Shown here: piece after piece, positions 1,978 to 24,500 of the stretch
How the letters are laid out: each line of letters starts with the position of its first letter
How positions within the stretch are numbered: position 1 is the first letter of the stretch
Source: an uncultured Ignavibacteria bacterium
GTDB lineage: Bacteria; Bacteroidota; Ignavibacteria; Kapaibacteriales; UBA2268
Length of the DNA stretch: 64,000 nucleotides
Direction: 5' to 3'
Assembly: GCA_903862655.1 (NCBI GenBank)
Contig: CAIOZA010000027.1
Coordinates: 1 to 64,000, forward strand
The notes under the pieces: model-generated
Seen by the model: the letters and a program-made list of their open reading frames with translations, nothing else
Told to the model about the DNA's origin: nothing
Databases searched by the model: none
Position numbers and translations under genes: made by a program

Positions 1978-4900
1978 ATGTTTAAATTAGTTAGATTTTA
2001 TCTGTTTTTCTTGATATATGGTATTCTTACTTCATTTAATACACTATACTCCCAAGAGCAAAAGACATTTACATTGCCCGATGGAATTAATGAGGGAGCT
2101 TTTCGTTTTGCATATAAAAATATATTCAGACGTGATTTGATATGTAAACTTTATCTGGATAAAGTTTACATTCCTTATTATGATTTAATGGCTTACCTAC
2201 AAATCAACCAAGATATAGATTATCCAGTGCATAAAATCAGTGGTTATTATTTAAAAATTGAAAATGAATATACCATAGATTTCTTCAATAAAACCTACAG
2301 CTTAAAAGGGATAAATTTTCAAATTGATAATAATGAAATTTTATTAGATGAATTAGAAGTTTATGTACTTCCTTCTTTCTTTAAAAAATTATTCAATTGG
2401 GATATGAACTTATCTTTTAAAGAATTGACAATAAAATTGAAAAACGATGATGATCTTCCTATTTACCAGACTTACGTAAGGGAGAAACAGTATAATTTTC
2501 TTGGTAAAAACAAGAATTATAATGAGGATGATTATTTTCCTTTAAAATTCGATAGGACAAGGAGTTTACTTAGCTTTGGTAGCATTGACTATAGGCTTAG
2601 AGGAAGTATTGATAATGATAATAATCGTTCTTTTAACTATGCTACTAATGTTGGATTTGAAATACTTGGCGGAGACATAACTGTAAATACAAACGGAAAT
2701 TATGACATTACCAAAAGAAGCAATAGACTATTAAATTTGGCTAGGTGGAGGCTAAATCTTGGTGATAATAATTATTTGCGGAATATAAGCATTGGTGATT
2801 TGACCACAAATAGTTTTAGGATGTCAAGCCTTCCTAGTGAAAGTTTTACAGGCATACAGATAACAAATGAAAAAGAATTCATAGCTGATTTTTTTTCAAA
2901 TTATATTATAGAAGATAAAATAGAGCCAGGTTGGCAGGTAGAATTATACAAAGATGGATTTTTATTTGCCCAAGCAGTAACAGACCCTCTGGGGCATTAT
3001 AAATTTGTGCTTCCTGTCAATTATGGTAAATCTAGTTATGAATTAAGATTCTATGGAAAAAAGGGAGAATATCAGGGAAAATTCGTTCCTATTCAAATTC
3101 CACCTGAATTAATGAAACCGGGTGAGATGAAATATTTCTTGAATGCTGGCAAATCAAAGCTAATTATGAATAAATTCATGGGCGAGGGTAGAGTTTCATT
3201 AGGTATTTTTAATTGGTTAAGCAATTCTTCAAGCATACAGAAAGTCGAAAATATTAATTCATTAAAATTTGTAAACAGTATGAACATTGGATTACTTGAT
3301 AATCTATATTTAACTCATGATTTCTATCTTCAAGAAAAAAATTCTTTAAAATTGAGATACTGGCCCGTAAATAACGGAAATTATGAAATTAGTGCTACTA
3401 AATTTGATAAACTGACAATGTACAATTATAATAGTGCAGATTACAATTTGTATTTTAATTTCAATTCTCAGAGATTATTCAATACTTCATTTAATCCGTC
3501 AATTATGGGCAATCGCTATTGGTTTAAAGACAAGATAATTGATATTGTTATGATTAAGGGTTCATATATTGTAATTCCTTTCTTGTTTGACTTATCTTAT
3601 AATTTAAATTTGACTAATAATTTTATCAATCCAATTGAGCCAAATGGTTTTATTTCTACTCAATTTTCTTATTTTTTAATGAACAGATCAAAAATTTTCT
3701 CTAATGCAAAATTTACTTTATCAGCTTTATATAGTCAAATGTACAAAAAATTTACACAAATGGAATTTGATTACGATCAAGGTTTATTTCAAAATACATT
3801 ATTAGTGCTCAAATTTATTAAGGATTTCAATAATAATAATTATTCGATTTCAGCAAATTTGAGAATAGATTTCAATACTTTTAGAAGTACAACAGAATAC
3901 CATACTTATAGCGGTAAATATCATAATTTATCCGAGGAGATTGAAGGACTGATTGGTATTGATTCTAAGCAATTAAATTATACATTTGGTAATCCTATTA
4001 ATAGGTCTTCCATTGGAAGTAGTTCTGCAAGCGTGAAGTTATATAACGATGCGAATATGAACAATAAATTTGATAATGATGAAGTCCTGTTAACAAAAGT
4101 TAAAATTGATATTAAGAGTCATCGTGCATCGCGTAAGCAAATGGGAAAAGAAACGCAATTCTTTAACCTCTTAGCTTATGAGCAATATAACGTTGTTATT
4201 GATCAGTCATCTATTAAAAATCCATTACTCATTCCTCAATTCACTGAGTTTTCGTTTATCGCTGAGCCAAATTTGTTTAAATCAATAGAAGTGCCATGTT
4301 ACTCTGGCGGGGCAGTTGAAGGCAATGTATTTCTTGTTAAGAAAGATATAAAAGTAGGCCAAGCTGGTGTTAGGGTTATAATAACTTCGAAGGATTTAAA
4401 GTTCAGAACACAAGTTCCTGTGTTTTCTGATGGTAGTTTCTATAAGTTAGGGATTCCGCCAGGGGATTACATTGCATATGTTGATTCCTTGCAGCGTGAA
4501 ATTTTAAAAGTAGAACAAACAGAAGATTTCAAAGAGTTTTCAGTTAAGCAGACAGTAAATGGCGATTTCGTGAGTGGTATAGATATTGAACTTATTCCAC
4601 GAGCTCCGTTTACAAGAGTCCTTGCAAAAGATGCACTGGATCCCAAGCAGAAGGACGTTAGCTCGAAGCTAACTCCAGCACTGCCAAAGGGTTACGGAAT
4701 TACGGACAGCGTGGGGGGTGAGTTAGTACGAGTTGCTGATACAAATCAAGCACTTACGGTTGCGGACACGAGCGGAACAGGGGTAAATAAGGACATATTG
4801 GGTGCGGTTATAGTGCCAAGTGCGGACACTACGGCAGCCACACCGGACCTTAAGACGCCGCAGCCATTGGAGCAGGAGATAGCGGTAAGGACGACGGAGG

Positions 4901-5262
4901 AGAGCAAGCCGGCACCGCCGCTGAAGATGACGCAAACGTTTGCGTACTCGGGACCGCGGGTGACTTACCTGACGCCGCCGATGCAGAGGGAGCTGGACAA
5001 GATAGCGGCGTACATGCAGGCGAACTCTGGGGCGAAGCTTTACGTGGAGGGGCATACGGACGTGTTCGGGACATTGGACGAGCACACGAAGGTGTCGGAG
5101 CAGCGAGCGAACGAGGTGCTGAGCTACATGGTGCGTAAGGGGATAGGCAAGAGCCGTTTGTTTGCGTCGGGCAAGGGGTCGCTGCAGCCGCTGGCGGACA
5201 ACGCCACGGAAGCGGGGCGGAAGAAGAACAGGCGGGTAGAATTGCGAGTAATTACGAATTAA
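1978..5262 (+). CDS. Outer-membrane usher fused to an OmpA-type peptidoglycan-binding domain
   Basis: The 1094-residue product has a signal peptide (about residues 1-25), an N-terminal domain of about 120 residues, and a long beta-strand-rich region (about 150-680) typical of an usher barrel. Next come Ig/SdrB-like segments (VKLYNDANMNNKFDNDE near 690; GVRVIITSKD near 795), a Thr/Pro/Ala-rich linker, and an OmpA C-terminal domain (about 994-1093). The last shows EGHTD, a central RANEV helix and GRKKNRRVELR, including the Asp and Arg that bind diaminopimelate. I infer that it exports the fibre subunits and anchors the assembly to the cell wall. Ushers of Proteobacteria lack an OmpA domain. G+C climbs from about 25% in the barrel to 60-70% over the linker and OmpA part. 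The last codons (V-I-T-N-stop) are formed by the repeat that follows. Confidence 0.72.
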   Translation: MFKLVRFYLFFLIYGILTSFNTLYSQEQKTFTLPDGINEGAFRFAYKNIFRRDLICKLYLDKVYIPYYDLMAYLQINQDIDYPVHKISGYYLKIENEYTIDFFNKTYSLKGINFQIDNNEILLDELEVYVLPSFFKKLFNWDMNLSFKELTIKLKNDDDLPIYQTYVREKQYNFLGKNKNYNEDDYFPLKFDRTRSLLSFGSIDYRLRGSIDNDNNRSFNYATNVGFEILGGDITVNTNGNYDITKRSNRLLNLARWRLNLGDNNYLRNISIGDLTTNSFRMSSLPSESFTGIQITNEKEFIADFFSNYIIEDKIEPGWQVELYKDGFLFAQAVTDPLGHYKFVLPVNYGKSSYELRFYGKKGEYQGKFVPIQIPPELMKPGEMKYFLNAGKSKLIMNKFMGEGRVSLGIFNWLSNSSSIQKVENINSLKFVNSMNIGLLDNLYLTHDFYLQEKNSLKLRYWPVNNGNYEISATKFDKLTMYNYNSADYNLYFNFNSQRLFNTSFNPSIMGNRYWFKDKIIDIVMIKGSYIVIPFLFDLSYNLNLTNNFINPIEPNGFISTQFSYFLMNRSKIFSNAKFTLSALYSQMYKKFTQMEFDYDQGLFQNTLLVLKFIKDFNNNNYSISANLRIDFNTFRSTTEYHTYSGKYHNLSEEIEGLIGIDSKQLNYTFGNPINRSSIGSSSASVKLYNDANMNNKFDNDEVLLTKVKIDIKSHRASRKQMGKETQFFNLLAYEQYNVVIDQSSIKNPLLIPQFTEFSFIAEPNLFKSIEVPCYSGGAVEGNVFLVKKDIKVGQAGVRVIITSKDLKFRTQVPVFSDGSFYKLGIPPGDYIAYVDSLQREILKVEQTEDFKEFSVKQTVNGDFVSGIDIELIPRAPFTRVLAKDALDPKQKDVSSKLTPALPKGYGITDSVGGELVRVADTNQALTVADTSGTGVNKDILGAVIVPSADTTAATPDLKTPQPLEQEIAVRTTEESKPAPPLKMTQTFAYSGPRVTYLTPPMQRELDKIAAYMQANSGAKLYVEGHTDVFGTLDEHTKVSEQRANEVLSYMVRKGIGKSRLFASGKGSLQPLADNATEAGRKKNRRVELRVITN

Positions 5263-5611
5263 TACAATTAATTACGAATTACGAAAAATACAATTAATTA
5301 CGAATTACGAAAATTAATTACGAATTACGAAAATTAATTACGAATTACGATAAATAATTACGAATTACGAAATACGAATTACGCAGTAGAAATACAATTA
5401 ATACATTTAATTACGAAATACGAATTACGCAGTAGAAATACAATTAATACATTTAATTACGAAATACGAATTACGCAGTAGAAATACAATTAATACAATT
5501 AATTGGGGATTACGAAAAAAATGCGTTAATGTGATTGTATTTTTCTGATCCAAAAATTGATCAAGTTAAATTAGCTCCGTAATTATTAATTCGTAATTGA
5601 TTCAGTAATTA
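5250..5611. repeat. Repeat module 1: ATTACGAATTACG array, core and inverted end
   Basis: This 360-bp intergenic module lies between convergent genes. From 5250 to about 5365 it is built of a unit of about 20 bp containing AATTACGAATTACGA. From 5369 to about 5505 a 46-bp unit (starting GAAATACGAATTACGCAG) occurs three times, at 5369, 5415 and 5461. A core at about 5513-5578 (including GTGATTGTATTTTTCTG) follows, and the module closes with GTAATTATTAATTCGTAATT at 5579-5598, the inverse of the array motif. The first bases supply the stop codon of the usher gene. The same core and end recur in module 2. No reading frame is evident inside. Confidence 0.9.
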
Positions 5612-5965
5612 ATTTTTAAGTTTTGTTGTGATTTGAATCTTTCCGATGATCCTGAGAATTTCTTGAATCGAAGCAGAAAGATTTTGTGCAGTTGTTTCGT
5701 CGATATAGCCGGTGTCTTTCATGAGTCTAATCCAATAGTCGGTTTCGCGAGCCTCTTTGTAAGCAATACTTAACTTAGAAATGAAATCGGGTCTGGATTG
5801 AGCACCGATGGATTCTTCGATATTCGCACCGATGGATGTAGCCGACTTAAGGAACTGCTTTGGTAAAACCCATTCTTTATTTTGAGCTACAATTGATTTA
5901 TAAGTCTTAACGGCAATTACAGCAAACTCATAACTTTTCCTTACAATTAAATTATCTTCTTTCAT
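5609..5965 (-). CDS. Four-helix-bundle protein (23S rRNA intervening-sequence / Avd-like family)
   Basis: The product is about 118 residues and almost wholly alpha-helical. It matches the family known as four-helix-bundle or S23 intervening-sequence protein: VRKSYEFAVIAVKTYK, then LPKQFLKSATSIGANIEE, SRPDFISKLSIAYKEARETDYW and a final helix with LRIIGKIQ. The SIGANIEE and KEARETDYWI segments are the most typical. I prefer the ATG at 5963-5965 to a GTG three codons upstream, because MKEDN is the common kind of start. Proteins of this family form homopentameric barrels; one branch (Avd) assists reverse transcriptases of diversity-generating retroelements, but most have no known role. There is no reverse transcriptase here. 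The gene is bracketed by two copies of one repeat module, suggesting it moves or spreads with the repeats. Confidence 0.85.
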   Translation of the reverse strand: MKEDNLIVRKSYEFAVIAVKTYKSIVAQNKEWVLPKQFLKSATSIGANIEESIGAQSRPDFISKLSIAYKEARETDYWIRLMKDTGYIDETTAQNLSASIQEILRIIGKIQITTKLKN

Positions 5966-5985
5966 GATTGGCACTACAAATAGTT

Positions 5986-6284
5986 AAATAATTACGAATT
6001 ACGAAAAATACAATTAATTACGAATTACGAAAATTAATTACGAATTACGAAAATTAATTACGAATTACGATATATAATTACGAATTACGATATATAATTA
6101 CGAATTACGATATATAATTACGAATTACGAATTACGAATTAGAAATACAATTAATTACGAATTACGAGAAACAATACAGAAAAAAATAAATACGTCAATA
6201 ATGTAATTGTATTTTTTCTGTTGAATAAATTAATCAAGTAAATTTATCTACGTAATTATTAATTCGTAATTCGTAATTAATTAG
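5986..6284. repeat. Repeat module 2: ATTACGAATTACG array, core and inverted end
   Basis: This is the second copy of the module, in the same orientation as module 1. The array (5986-6168) is built of units of about 20 bp, including three successive copies of a TATATAATTACGAATTACGA type unit around 6070-6130. The core at about 6178-6252 (GTAATTGTATTTTTTCTG and ATCAAGTAAATTTATCTAC) aligns with the core of module 1 with small indels. The end (6253-6284) repeats GTAATTATTAATTCGTAATT and runs into the stop codon of lptD. Each module therefore lies immediately downstream of a minus-strand gene, with its array on the far side. Confidence 0.9.
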
Positions 6285-8914
6285 AAGAAGTCGCTGTTGC
6301 GTTCTTCGTACTTGAGGTCGCGGAGCTGAGGAGCTTTGATGCCGAAGTGGAGGAAGAAGCCCTGGTTGTAGCCGATGGGGTACCAGGTGAAGTTGAGCTC
6401 CCAGCAGTGGAGGTCTTTTCGGACGGTGATTACTGGGGAGACGATTTGTTTGGTGATGAGATCGATTTGGAGCGATCCGGAGATGAACCAGGTGGGGGTG
6501 AGGTTGAGCGTGAGGTTAGTGCCAAGGGTGAGAGTCTGGCTTTTCTGGCGGATGTTGGGCATAGAGTAGTTGTACATAAGGTTCAAGCCGACGGACCATG
6601 GGAGCTTGAGGGGCGAGAAGCCCGGGGACTTATCGCCGAAAAAGTCGAAGAATTCTTCGGTATAGTTAATTTTGGAGGAGAAGCGTTCGCCGAGGCCGAT
6701 GCTGTCCTTTTTCTTAGCATCGGACGGAGCAGTACCGCCACCGAAACCGGATTCGGAGGAGAAGCCGGTGGAAAGGTTGAGATTGAAGTTTGTGATGCGA
6801 GCTAAGCCTTTTCCGGCCGCCAGGAGGTACCTGTCGGTGAGGACGATGGAATCCCTGCCCTGATAGCCAGTATTGACAATCTCTTCGTAGAAGTTGAAAG
6901 AGGAGCCTCCATTGAGGTTAATACCGGCAACGCTAGCTGTGTGGAAGGAGAGGGAAGCGTCGCTGAGCTTTCGGAATTTTTTAACGAGATCATAATTACC
7001 AGAAAAAGTAAATCCAAGAATATCGATGGGCTTTTCTTCGACGGTGTCAGCCTGATTGAGTTTGATGCTAATGCTGTTGACGAAGGAATAATTGATTGAA
7101 CCGGAGAGATAGGATGAAGCAAGGCCTCCGCCATCTTTTTCGAAGCGGGAATATTTGACATTTTGTTTGGACAGGGAATCGTAATATTCACCATAGAAAC
7201 CATCTTTGGGCGAAGACTGATCGGGCCTGAAAGCGAATGAGAAATTCGGCTGAAAAGTATGCCTGATAGCTTTGATGCCGAGAAGATTGGGCTTCATCAT
7301 GCCGAAAAGGCGAGTGGACATAGAAATACCGGCAGAGTATGTATATTCGGAGAAGAAACCATACTCAACATCGGATTTGATGGTGCTGTCGGCCATGTCG
7401 CGATAGTTAGTCGACCTGCGAACGTAGTTATTCAAGCCCAAACTAATGTAAGGAGTAAAGGTGAAATACGAAAGCTTAGGCAGAATAAACGATATGCGGG
7501 GGTTATGGGAAATCTTCCCGGACCAGATATTGGAGAAGGAAGTATCCTTGCGCACAGAATCGGGAGAGAGAACGATATTATTAACAGAAATAATTTTGGA
7601 GTCGTTATAGTTGGCATTAGCACTGTAGGAGATAGATAATTCCCTAAGCCAGCTATCGGACGAAACCGAAGATTTCAAGGGATACCACTGAGGCAGGTTG
7701 AACGACAGCGAAGGAGATTGGGAGTAGGTATTAGTGATAATATTCTGGGATCTGCCATAAGCAAGAGAAAGACTCGAGCCATTGTCGAAGGACTTAGAGT
7801 AAGAAGCATTGGAAGAGATTTCCTGAACAACTCTCTGAGTTTGATCCCACTGAGTATTCCTATTCCTGTCATTACTAGAGAAATTGAGATTGACGATAAA
7901 CTGTTCCTGAGGGGAAATAGACTGATTGTGATTGAGAGCAAAAAGCCAGTTTTTAGAATAGCCTTCGTTTGGATTAAATCTAGATTTACCGAATTCAAAC
8001 CTGAAATTACCGGACAACATATCCTGATATTTCCATTGAGTAAAATTCTTAACATTGAAACCACCTTTGGAGTAGAAATCGACACTGAATTTAGTATCAT
8101 AATAATCGCTCAAAGCCAGGTAGACGCCCAGATTTTCAAGAGTCACTCCACGATTGCCAGAAAAGAAAAAAGCCGGAATAATCAAACCGGATTTTCTGCC
8201 AGACTGCTGGCTGAAGAACAAACCGAATGGCAGCGCAAAAATGGGAAGATCCTCAACATAGAAGATAATAGGATCGATATAAATTTTATCGCCAACTGCT
8301 ACCTTCATTTCCGGCGATCCAAAATAGAAGTGCGGATGAGGTTTGTCGCAGGTAGTATAGCAACCGTCCTGAACAAACAACTCATTTTCAGATATACGTT
8401 TAATTTTATCGCCCGAATAGTAACCATCTGAGATCTGAGTCTCACCAACTTTAATAACGCCCTTATTTGTTTTGAAGTTGAATTTCATCGATTCACCGTA
8501 GAATACTTCGCCTTTGTCCGTGAATTTAGGATAGCCAACCAATCGATTATTGGAATCCTTTACACCGTTGGCATAAAGCTGTGAGTTGTTGAAATTCAGT
8601 TCGATTACTTCGGCTTCGAGAGTTTGCTGCTTATACGATAGTTTAGAATTACCCCTAAGCCTCATCATTTTCGTTTTTAGATAAAAAACAGCAGTGTCTT
8701 TAGAGGAGTAATTTACTATTGTGTCTAGTCCCGATTTACTCCTAGCTTTGATCTGTAATAGTGAGTCAGTTTTATTTATTTGAGTTATTAAAGTATCGGT
8801 TTTAGTTGAATCTAATATTGTTGGAATTGTAGGTATAATATTTATTGAATCAACCTGAGCAAAAGTACTTTGCGCAGAGGATATCGTAAAAATACAAATA
8901 GCAAACCACAACAA
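6281..8914 (-). CDS. lptD: LPS assembly outer-membrane protein LptD (OstA)
   Basis: The 877-residue product has a signal sequence (LWFAICIFTISSAQS, cleavage near TFAQ), an OstA-like periplasmic jelly-roll (about residues 75-200; MRLRGNSKLSYK and YGESMKFNFKT segments) and a large C-terminal beta-barrel (about 230-877). The junction FFSQQSGRKSGLIIPAF is typical of LptD. It inserts lipopolysaccharide into the outer leaflet with LptE. No ATG is present. The TTG at 8912-8914 is the nominal start, but the in-frame codons just upstream read LKSKFIL, which would give a better charged n-region, so initiation may be further up at a rare codon. G+C is about 55-57% at the 3' end near the repeat and falls to about 38% and lower towards the 5' end. 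Confidence 0.85.
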   Translation of the reverse strand: MLWFAICIFTISSAQSTFAQVDSINIIPTIPTILDSTKTDTLITQINKTDSLLQIKARSKSGLDTIVNYSSKDTAVFYLKTKMMRLRGNSKLSYKQQTLEAEVIELNFNNSQLYANGVKDSNNRLVGYPKFTDKGEVFYGESMKFNFKTNKGVIKVGETQISDGYYSGDKIKRISENELFVQDGCYTTCDKPHPHFYFGSPEMKVAVGDKIYIDPIIFYVEDLPIFALPFGLFFSQQSGRKSGLIIPAFFFSGNRGVTLENLGVYLALSDYYDTKFSVDFYSKGGFNVKNFTQWKYQDMLSGNFRFEFGKSRFNPNEGYSKNWLFALNHNQSISPQEQFIVNLNFSSNDRNRNTQWDQTQRVVQEISSNASYSKSFDNGSSLSLAYGRSQNIITNTYSQSPSLSFNLPQWYPLKSSVSSDSWLRELSISYSANANYNDSKIISVNNIVLSPDSVRKDTSFSNIWSGKISHNPRISFILPKLSYFTFTPYISLGLNNYVRRSTNYRDMADSTIKSDVEYGFFSEYTYSAGISMSTRLFGMMKPNLLGIKAIRHTFQPNFSFAFRPDQSSPKDGFYGEYYDSLSKQNVKYSRFEKDGGGLASSYLSGSINYSFVNSISIKLNQADTVEEKPIDILGFTFSGNYDLVKKFRKLSDASLSFHTASVAGINLNGGSSFNFYEEIVNTGYQGRDSIVLTDRYLLAAGKGLARITNFNLNLSTGFSSESGFGGGTAPSDAKKKDSIGLGERFSSKINYTEEFFDFFGDKSPGFSPLKLPWSVGLNLMYNYSMPNIRQKSQTLTLGTNLTLNLTPTWFISGSLQIDLITKQIVSPVITVRKDLHCWELNFTWYPIGYNQGFFLHFGIKAPQLRDLKYEERNSDFF

Positions 8915-24296: not shown

Positions 24297-24500
24297 TTCT
24301 TGTATCATCAAAATAAACAACAGAAAAGAGTTTTTAGATTCGTAAAATCAAGGAACCCTCTTCCGTCAATTTGATAATTGATAACCCCTTTGCAAACGGC
24401 AGGCAAATTCATTTCTAAACAAACCCTATCGGTTATGAGCCATATCCAGAGGACTTAGGTCAGATAACTCGGAGTATAATTAAAATCACAGTGCTGAGAG
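24297..24500 (-). ncRNA. Unassigned structured leader candidate upstream of the CMD-chrA-moaA-moaC operon
   Basis: About 200 gene-free bases lie between the rhodanese-like gene and the terminator. On the minus strand GGTTAT-type and ATAACC arms (24431-24436 with 24381-24386) enclose an inner TTTGC/GCAAA hairpin, and several GC-richer blocks stand out from the AT-rich background. A structured 5' leader ending in a terminator just before a Moco operon would fit a cofactor riboswitch or attenuator. I cannot match it to the Moco RNA consensus from memory, so no class is assigned; a plain 3' UTR is the alternative. Confidence 0.35.

Follow-up and report, generated by a model that had tools for sequence, protein, structure and literature searches.

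Organization of the focal locus

Within the window, the 64,000-nucleotide stretch of DNA from an uncultured Ignavibacteria bacterium that was analysed as a whole, an usher-type gene and an lptD-like gene are convergent, and between them lie two repeat modules and one small gene of the S23 family (Table 1). The modules (left, 5250-5608; right, 5985-6280/6284) have the same orientation on both sides of this gene, as the first-pass annotation had described. In each, an array of AATTACG units is followed by a short core and then by an inverted end, which in the left module reads CGTAATTATTAATTCGTAATT. The sequence AATTACGAATTACG, with one mismatch or none, has 21 matches in the window, every one of them inside the modules, and the number expected from shuffles is 0.09. 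A 46-bp higher-order unit is present in about 2.5 copies within the left array (5363-5516). The arrays of the two modules share 97% identity over 109 nt, and the cores with inverted ends only 79% over 100 nt; homogenisation or copying of the arrays is thus more recent than that of the cores.

The modules are in direct contact with the genes around them. The lptD stop codon (6281-6283) is continuous with the inverted end of the right module, and the S23 stop codon abuts the inverted end of the left module, both as originally annotated. A contact between the left module and the usher stop codon had also been recognized, and can be refined: the end of the usher gene (V-I-T-N-stop, 5248-5262) is itself built from repeat sequence, so that the left array reaches into the 3' end of the gene and supplies its last codons as well as its stop.

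Between the modules, the S23 gene is the only ORF of at least 60 aa, and no transposase of the kind that defines an autonomous insertion sequence is encoded there. The element is located between two protein genes and not inside a 23S rRNA gene; Rfam detects no rRNA in the window. Its termini are complementary and able to form a stem around the S23 ORF, as is the case for the intervening sequences (IVSs) of 23S rRNA. The S23 gene is found downstream of lptD in the same direction. On the coding strand, the order is arm (AATTACG), core, array (CGTAATT), S23, arm (AATTACG), core, array (CGTAATT). Direct similarity between the flanks of the focal gene (133) exceeds inverted similarity (45) because the second module is present.

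The usher-type gene has an OmpA-like peptidoglycan-binding domain at its end (window 4930-5262), a fusion that is, to our knowledge, unusual. The 3' end of this gene has a GC content of 0.60-0.61 (window 4750-5250) and that of lptD one of 0.50-0.54 (6250-7000); between them, the modules and the S23 gene are at 0.20-0.34, and further up in the usher gene values of 0.24-0.26 occur. A molybdenum/tungsten cofactor riboswitch (RF01055) is present at window positions 24369-24486 on the minus strand, scoring 64 bits against a gathering score of 36.

Table 1. Features of the focal locus, in window coordinates
Feature	Position	Strand	Remarks
Usher-type outer membrane gene (name from the first-pass annotation), C-terminal OmpA domain	1978..5262	+	Ends inside array
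Left-module array: AATTACG units in ~20-bp repeats, then ~2.5 copies of the 46-bp unit	5250..5516	+	Second, gene-less arm set
Left-module core, TGTGATTGTATTTTTCTG-type	5517..5574	.	Core and end 79% identical to those of right module
3' arm, the inverted end of the left module; AATTACGAATTAATAATTACG on the coding strand	5575..5608	-	Begins at S23 stop codon
S23 (PF05635 / TIGR02436) four-helix-bundle gene, sole gene of the cassette	5609..5974	-	Profile matches, ORF
5' arm, the array of the right module; CGTAATTCGTAATT on the coding strand	5985..6167	-	Pairs with 3' arm
Right-module core	6168..6247	.	Comparison of modules
Right-module inverted end, pairable with the array of its own module	6248..6284	-	Continuous with lptD stop codon
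lptD-like outer membrane gene (name from the first-pass annotation)	6281..8914	-	Upstream of, and co-directional with, S23

The S23 gene and its family

The S23 gene may start at GTG 5974 (121 aa) or at ATG 5965 (118 aa). The protein belongs to the S23 family, with scores above the curated cut-offs for both PF05635 (E=3.6e-26, 91.9 bits against a Pfam cut-off of 33.8) and TIGR02436 (S23, '23S rRNA intervening sequence protein'; E=2e-28, 98.8 bits against 24). Its matches in the PDB are the S23 entries 2RLD and 2GSC only, the former at E=1.4e-49 for the family alignment. The protein was initially labelled Avd/S23-type. Avd, a component of diversity-generating retroelements, is a small helical-bundle protein thought to be related to S23 in fold. 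In terms of sequence, the S23 part of the label stands and the Avd part is unsupported, as no match to Avd was obtained from Pfam, which gave PF05635 only, or from the PDB, which gave only the two S23 entries. A member of the S23 family is a homopentamer according to structural work cited in PMC4990558.

PF05635 is a large family, present in 232 of 296 genomes sampled from the phylum, and some of these have at least 15 copies. The genome containing the focal locus (4.07 Mb, 148 contigs) has seven S23 genes. At five of the seven, arrays are present that are as strong as the single one found elsewhere in 266 kb. On contig C56, the S23 flanks contain ATTCGAT/ATTCGAC and GGGACAA array types; the copy on C87, which has TGAACAATG, is inside a tRNA cluster, between tRNA-Thr and tRNA-Trp; and on C80 AATCACC/AGTCACC arrays surround two tandem copies. 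The C44 copy, beside apparent flagellar genes, has no arrays. The C80 genes (L017 and L018) are closely similar and stand in long arrays that are all direct, unlike the usual inverted arms. This tandem pair is 88% identical over ~1.1 kb, indicating that such duplications do happen in this genome.

Genome-wide, AATTACGAATTACGA occurs in the two focal modules and at one place on contig C14. At that place (C14:4210), short CGTAATT arrays are located between small ORFs, one of them excisionase-like, without an S23 gene. The first-pass annotation had suggested searching for the module core; when the right core and inverted end were used as a query against this genome and 60 relatives, the two focal copies were recovered, and otherwise mostly short CGTAATT stretches, so that there is no core family.

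Periodic and inverted arms at S23 genes

S23 loci were drawn from relatives, from the phylum and, for 80 loci, from across many phyla. In the 100-nt flanks of 163 loci, a set that leaves out an apparently vertical S23 subfamily, the mean best lag identity reaches 0.69 at a lag of 7 and 0.62 at a lag of 14; for each of the remaining lags from 4 to 20 it is 0.41-0.45. Of these loci, 134 have 7 or 14 as their best period.

The two flanks of a locus are usually also complementary to each other. When the downstream flanks of all loci are ranked as reverse-complement partners, a procedure that also controls for composition and for words common to several loci, a locus's own downstream flank is among the top 1% in 61 of 171 cases (1.7 expected) and among the top 5% in 87. 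The equivalent numbers for direct repeats are 14 and 25. The median inverted score is 15 for S23 genes and 8 for other ORFs of the same loci (n=248; Mann-Whitney p=2e-26); none of these arm statistics takes account of kinship among genomes. Inverted similarity prevails over direct similarity by 62 to 7 in a set of 74 loci from many phyla, and the one cyanobacterial locus examined, from Nodosilinea (L255), likewise has period-7 flanks with more inverted than direct similarity. The 95% control level for inverted arms is reached in the 100-nt flanks of 103 of the 163 loci, with ~40% below it.

Several simpler descriptions of the arms can be set aside. Direct repeats dominate at a few loci, including the focal site and C80, but are ruled out as the general rule. 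The word ATTACG is not a signature: each locus has its own 7-mer, and 95 distinct consensus words are found among 126 strong 5' arms. The 5' arms contain a sense stop in 57 of 59 loci and an antisense stop in 44 of 59. A need for stops in all frames would nevertheless not readily account for a period other than a multiple of 3, as AATTACG, a word of the commonest type, has none in the sense direction.

Eight S23 genes lack arms and thus provide an internal negative control, although not a blind one, since the subfamily was chosen by protein resemblance after the flanks of its first member had been seen. This divergent subfamily (L023, which is the C44 copy, and L043, L046, L047, L049, L051, L052 and L120) is apparently vertically inherited and possibly domesticated.

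Genomic context and the unit at the focal site

Among the 125 loci in which both neighbours are clear, the gene upstream of S23 has the same direction in 118; the corresponding share is 80% in gene triplets overall (p=0.0001) and 85% when small genes are considered (p=0.06). The 5' arm often begins at the stop codon of this upstream gene or takes it in. Two S23 copies are located behind 5S rRNA and one in the tRNA cluster mentioned above. In genome G014, a 23S rRNA gene (L090:1-2171) contains an insert of ~720 nt, probably an intron; its ORF (622-1167) is LAGLIDADG-like and not S23. An S23 cassette is found behind the 5S rRNA of this same rRNA operon.

At the focal site, the S23 gene forms a standard cassette together with the preceding array and the following arm: the 5' arm is the array of the right module, and the 3' arm is the inverted end of the left one. 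The unit was originally proposed to be the gene plus one module, but the natural unit is instead an arm, the gene and an inverted arm. The arm-core and core-array pieces that remain would then duplicate the junction between two cassettes. Arm, core and array on each side of one gene are what a tandem duplication between arrays would produce, and the focal site may have arisen in this way, one of the two genes being lost, or through unequal exchange between arrays.

Presence, absence and copies

In one family, the nuoC-nuoD junction occurs in both empty and filled states. In empty genomes, the nuoC stop and nuoD start overlap or nearly touch (TAATG in G368). In nine genomes, including G088 and G176 of the same genus as G368, an insert of 437-575 nt is present precisely between stop and start. 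The site in G343 is also filled, with a reading frame that automated parsing did not define, and in G355 a 57-nt spacer, perhaps a scar, separates the two genes. Of the 10 filled sites, 9 have TAG as the nuoC stop; the empty sites listed have TAA or TGA. S23 proteins encoded at this junction are 50-81% identical; the G088 protein is 81% identical to that of G168, from another genus, but 74% identical to that of its congener G176. The pattern of presence and absence could be that of one old insertion followed by repeated precise loss.

Copies are also found at unrelated places in one genome. Pairs in G014, among them L083/L085, L088/L089 and L091/L092, have 84-91% DNA identity, and their homology stops in the near flanks, so that the copies have only the gene and near flanks in common. 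A MITE would have a target-site duplication and terminal inverted repeats in common with an autonomous element; no target-site duplication is definable in comparisons of these copies or of the nuoC-nuoD sites, and the arms are inverted but locus-specific.

As for the focal site, neither an array nor an S23 gene follows lptD in 28 relatives, suggesting that the insertion is lineage-specific; the neighbouring gene is different in these genomes as well. The first-pass annotation proposed that a unit of gene and module joined a single module already in place; the usher-lptD junction, where such an order of events would be visible, is kept in none of the relatives examined, and an empty site is observed only in distant relatives, whose neighbouring genes differ. 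The first-pass annotation had allowed that the modules might be common intergenic repeats with no link to this gene family, or ancient and fixed in all relatives. The association with S23 is instead strong across S23 loci, and neither array nor gene is fixed, given the 28 relatives without an array after lptD. Its proposal of a small, apparently mobile unit of S23 and repeats without a transposase gains support and applies to S23 loci in general.

A different possibility is that S23 is a domesticated host regulator, and that the arms are operator or attenuator sites for autoregulation or for the coupling of neighbouring genes. The 5' arm does end near the S23 start in many loci, and the apparently vertical subfamily, found beside apparent flagellar genes in the focal genome, would be compatible with such a role. 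However, arm words change quickly, cassettes come and go at a single site, and the neighbours (nuo, thiolase, lptD, tRNA, rRNA) are without common function, making a host regulator highly improbable.

Arrays without S23 genes

Not all arrays accompany an S23 gene. In G035, an S23-rich relative, 31 intergenic 7-nt arrays are present in 313 kb on contigs without S23; at any other period from 5 to 12, the same test detects 0-3 arrays. No S23 remnants were found next to these solo arrays by tblastn. In the focal genome, the same array test detects one in 266 kb. Because arrays without S23 exist, and are very common in S23-rich genomes like G035, arrays alone do not mark the element. In a sample from G035 (L123-L142), spacers holding 7-nt arrays have a median length of 295 nt, compared with 99 nt for all spacers.

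Among the 296 genomes of the phylum, those with more S23 genes have higher counts of ATTCNNNATTCNNNATTC (Spearman 0.61-0.65), and the correlation persists after genome size is taken into account (0.57) and is positive within families. The median count is 1 without S23 and 19.5 with 10-15 S23 genes; S23 numbers in this survey are a lower bound from ~15 on (at least 15). The reversed control pattern for these counts has a period of 7 itself and hence does not serve as a null.

The REP sequences and their transposase, TnpA-REP (RAYT), offer one model for such a distribution: a single gene is bracketed by inverted short repeats, and related repeats are dispersed genome-wide. By analogy, S23 might be a REP-associated protein and the solo arrays its non-autonomous offspring, a reading that overlaps with that of a mobile cassette and adds the claim about solo arrays. 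Both systems have a single gene within inverted short repeats and related repeats across the genome, and in the 296 genomes the counts of arrays and of S23 genes are correlated. However, S23 is no known nuclease, its product being a four-helix bundle without known catalytic residues; the word differs among copies; and solo arrays are rare in the focal genome. A REP-like relationship is thus unlikely.

It may also be that the arrays originate by replication slippage, with complementary stretches corrected to inverted repeats, and that S23 is merely located there. Most repeat-rich bacterial genomes in one survey are reported to have heptamers as their most abundant type of repeat (PMC4679880), and the abundance of S23-less arrays in G035 fits this model. 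It does not explain why other genes of the same loci lack inverted flanks, why arrays in the focal genome are rare away from S23 genes, why the control subfamily has no arms, or why paralogues above ~75% identity keep their word, and it is distinctly unlikely.

Maintenance of matched arms

Where the word has changed, it has changed on both sides. The orthologous cassettes L111 (G035) and L101 (G020) have words of the GAATGTT and AAGTTTT type, respectively, each with a complementary partner on the other side. At nuoC-nuoD, arms match better within a genome than between genomes (permutation p=0.004 for alignment score and 0.002 for duplex energy), with the own partner being the single best in just 2 of 9 rows and the permutation ignoring kinship of genomes. 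S23 copies with more than ~75% protein identity have flanks in common, and below ~65% the flanks are unrelated; the word thus accompanies the gene, although its turnover is faster than that of the protein.

Matching of this kind could reflect an IVS-like RNA element in mRNA, in which a selected RNA stem, formed by the arms, surrounds the S23 message in the operon transcript and is cut by RNase III to separate cistrons. The known IVS of 23S rRNA has a sense S23 ORF within a terminal-inverted-repeat stem of 28 bp and is excised by RNase III (PMC4990558). The cassettes appear to be sense-oriented as well; they are intercistronic, strong duplexes are predicted between their arms, and in the predicted fold of the focal transcript the arms enclose the ORF, with better folding than in shuffles (z=-3.1). 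However, the mismatches between arms include 220 that are G-U-compatible and 203 that are A-C (p=0.44), and this lack of G-U bias leaves a selected RNA stem unsupported and argues for a DNA-level process. In addition, the focal arrays are far longer than a stem requires, and a stem gives no reason for the 7-nt period. An RNA element of this type is rather unlikely. Arms that originate and are kept up at the DNA level, by copying or palindrome correction and perhaps with single-stranded hairpin recognition, are the favoured model; recognition of the arm hairpin by S23 would be a guess.

A candidate mobile cassette

The focal locus is probably one copy, together with a gene-less duplicate of the arm module, of a widespread and compact cassette that consists of a 7-nt-periodic arm, an S23 gene and a reverse-complement arm, and that is mobile or selfish. 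In a possible mechanism, the cassette, which carries no transposase, would be expressed from a host operon, whether as part of an mRNA, tRNA or rRNA transcript. The S23 protein would bind the arms when they are folded into a hairpin, either as single-stranded DNA or as RNA, and the bound cassette would be copied by enzymes supplied in trans. DNA-level copying between arms, rather than selection for an RNA stem, would keep the arms matched. More tentatively, S23 cassettes may constitute a separate class of bacterial mobile element, present in many phyla, with a non-enzymatic four-helix-bundle protein as their sole gene product. The feature recognized would be 7-nt phase and self-complementarity and not sequence, so that the word could drift freely as long as the arms stay matched.

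Relationship to known systems

The cassette can be read as an element that resembles the 23S rRNA IVS but stands by itself in operons. Like the IVSs of Leptospira and Coxiella burnetii, it has an S23 ORF, apparently in the sense direction of a host transcript, and complementary termini, is sporadic in distribution, and is proposed to be mobile or selfish (PMC4990558). It differs in its location, which is not 23S rRNA but the space between ordinary operon genes, in having arms that are 7-nt-periodic arrays with a locus-specific word, and in its many copies per genome.

Heptanucleotide repeats are present in other bacteria. The STRR sequences of filamentous cyanobacteria are, like the arms, degenerate 7-nt tandem repeats between genes, and we know of no link between them and S23 genes. 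In marine Beggiatoaceae, TAACTGA forms intergenic heptanucleotide direct repeats near start codons, to which a regulatory reading has been given (PMC4679880). The S23 arms resemble these in type and location, but the Beggiatoaceae repeat is one fixed genome-wide word, and no S23 gene is mentioned in connection with it (PMC4679880). Heptamer repeats (PMC4679880) and IVSs have each been described before, separately. No description of S23 genes between complementary 7-nt arms was found in the open-access literature, although the combination may have been described elsewhere.

With a rule that predicts both sides of most PF05635 copies, a set of hypothetical proteins becomes an element that can be defined by its ends and insertion site and whose parts can be tested. 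The rule also links free-standing S23 genes to the old puzzle of the intervening sequences in 23S rRNA. Finally, S23 cassettes might be where the 7-nt repeats frequent in some bacterial genomes come from.
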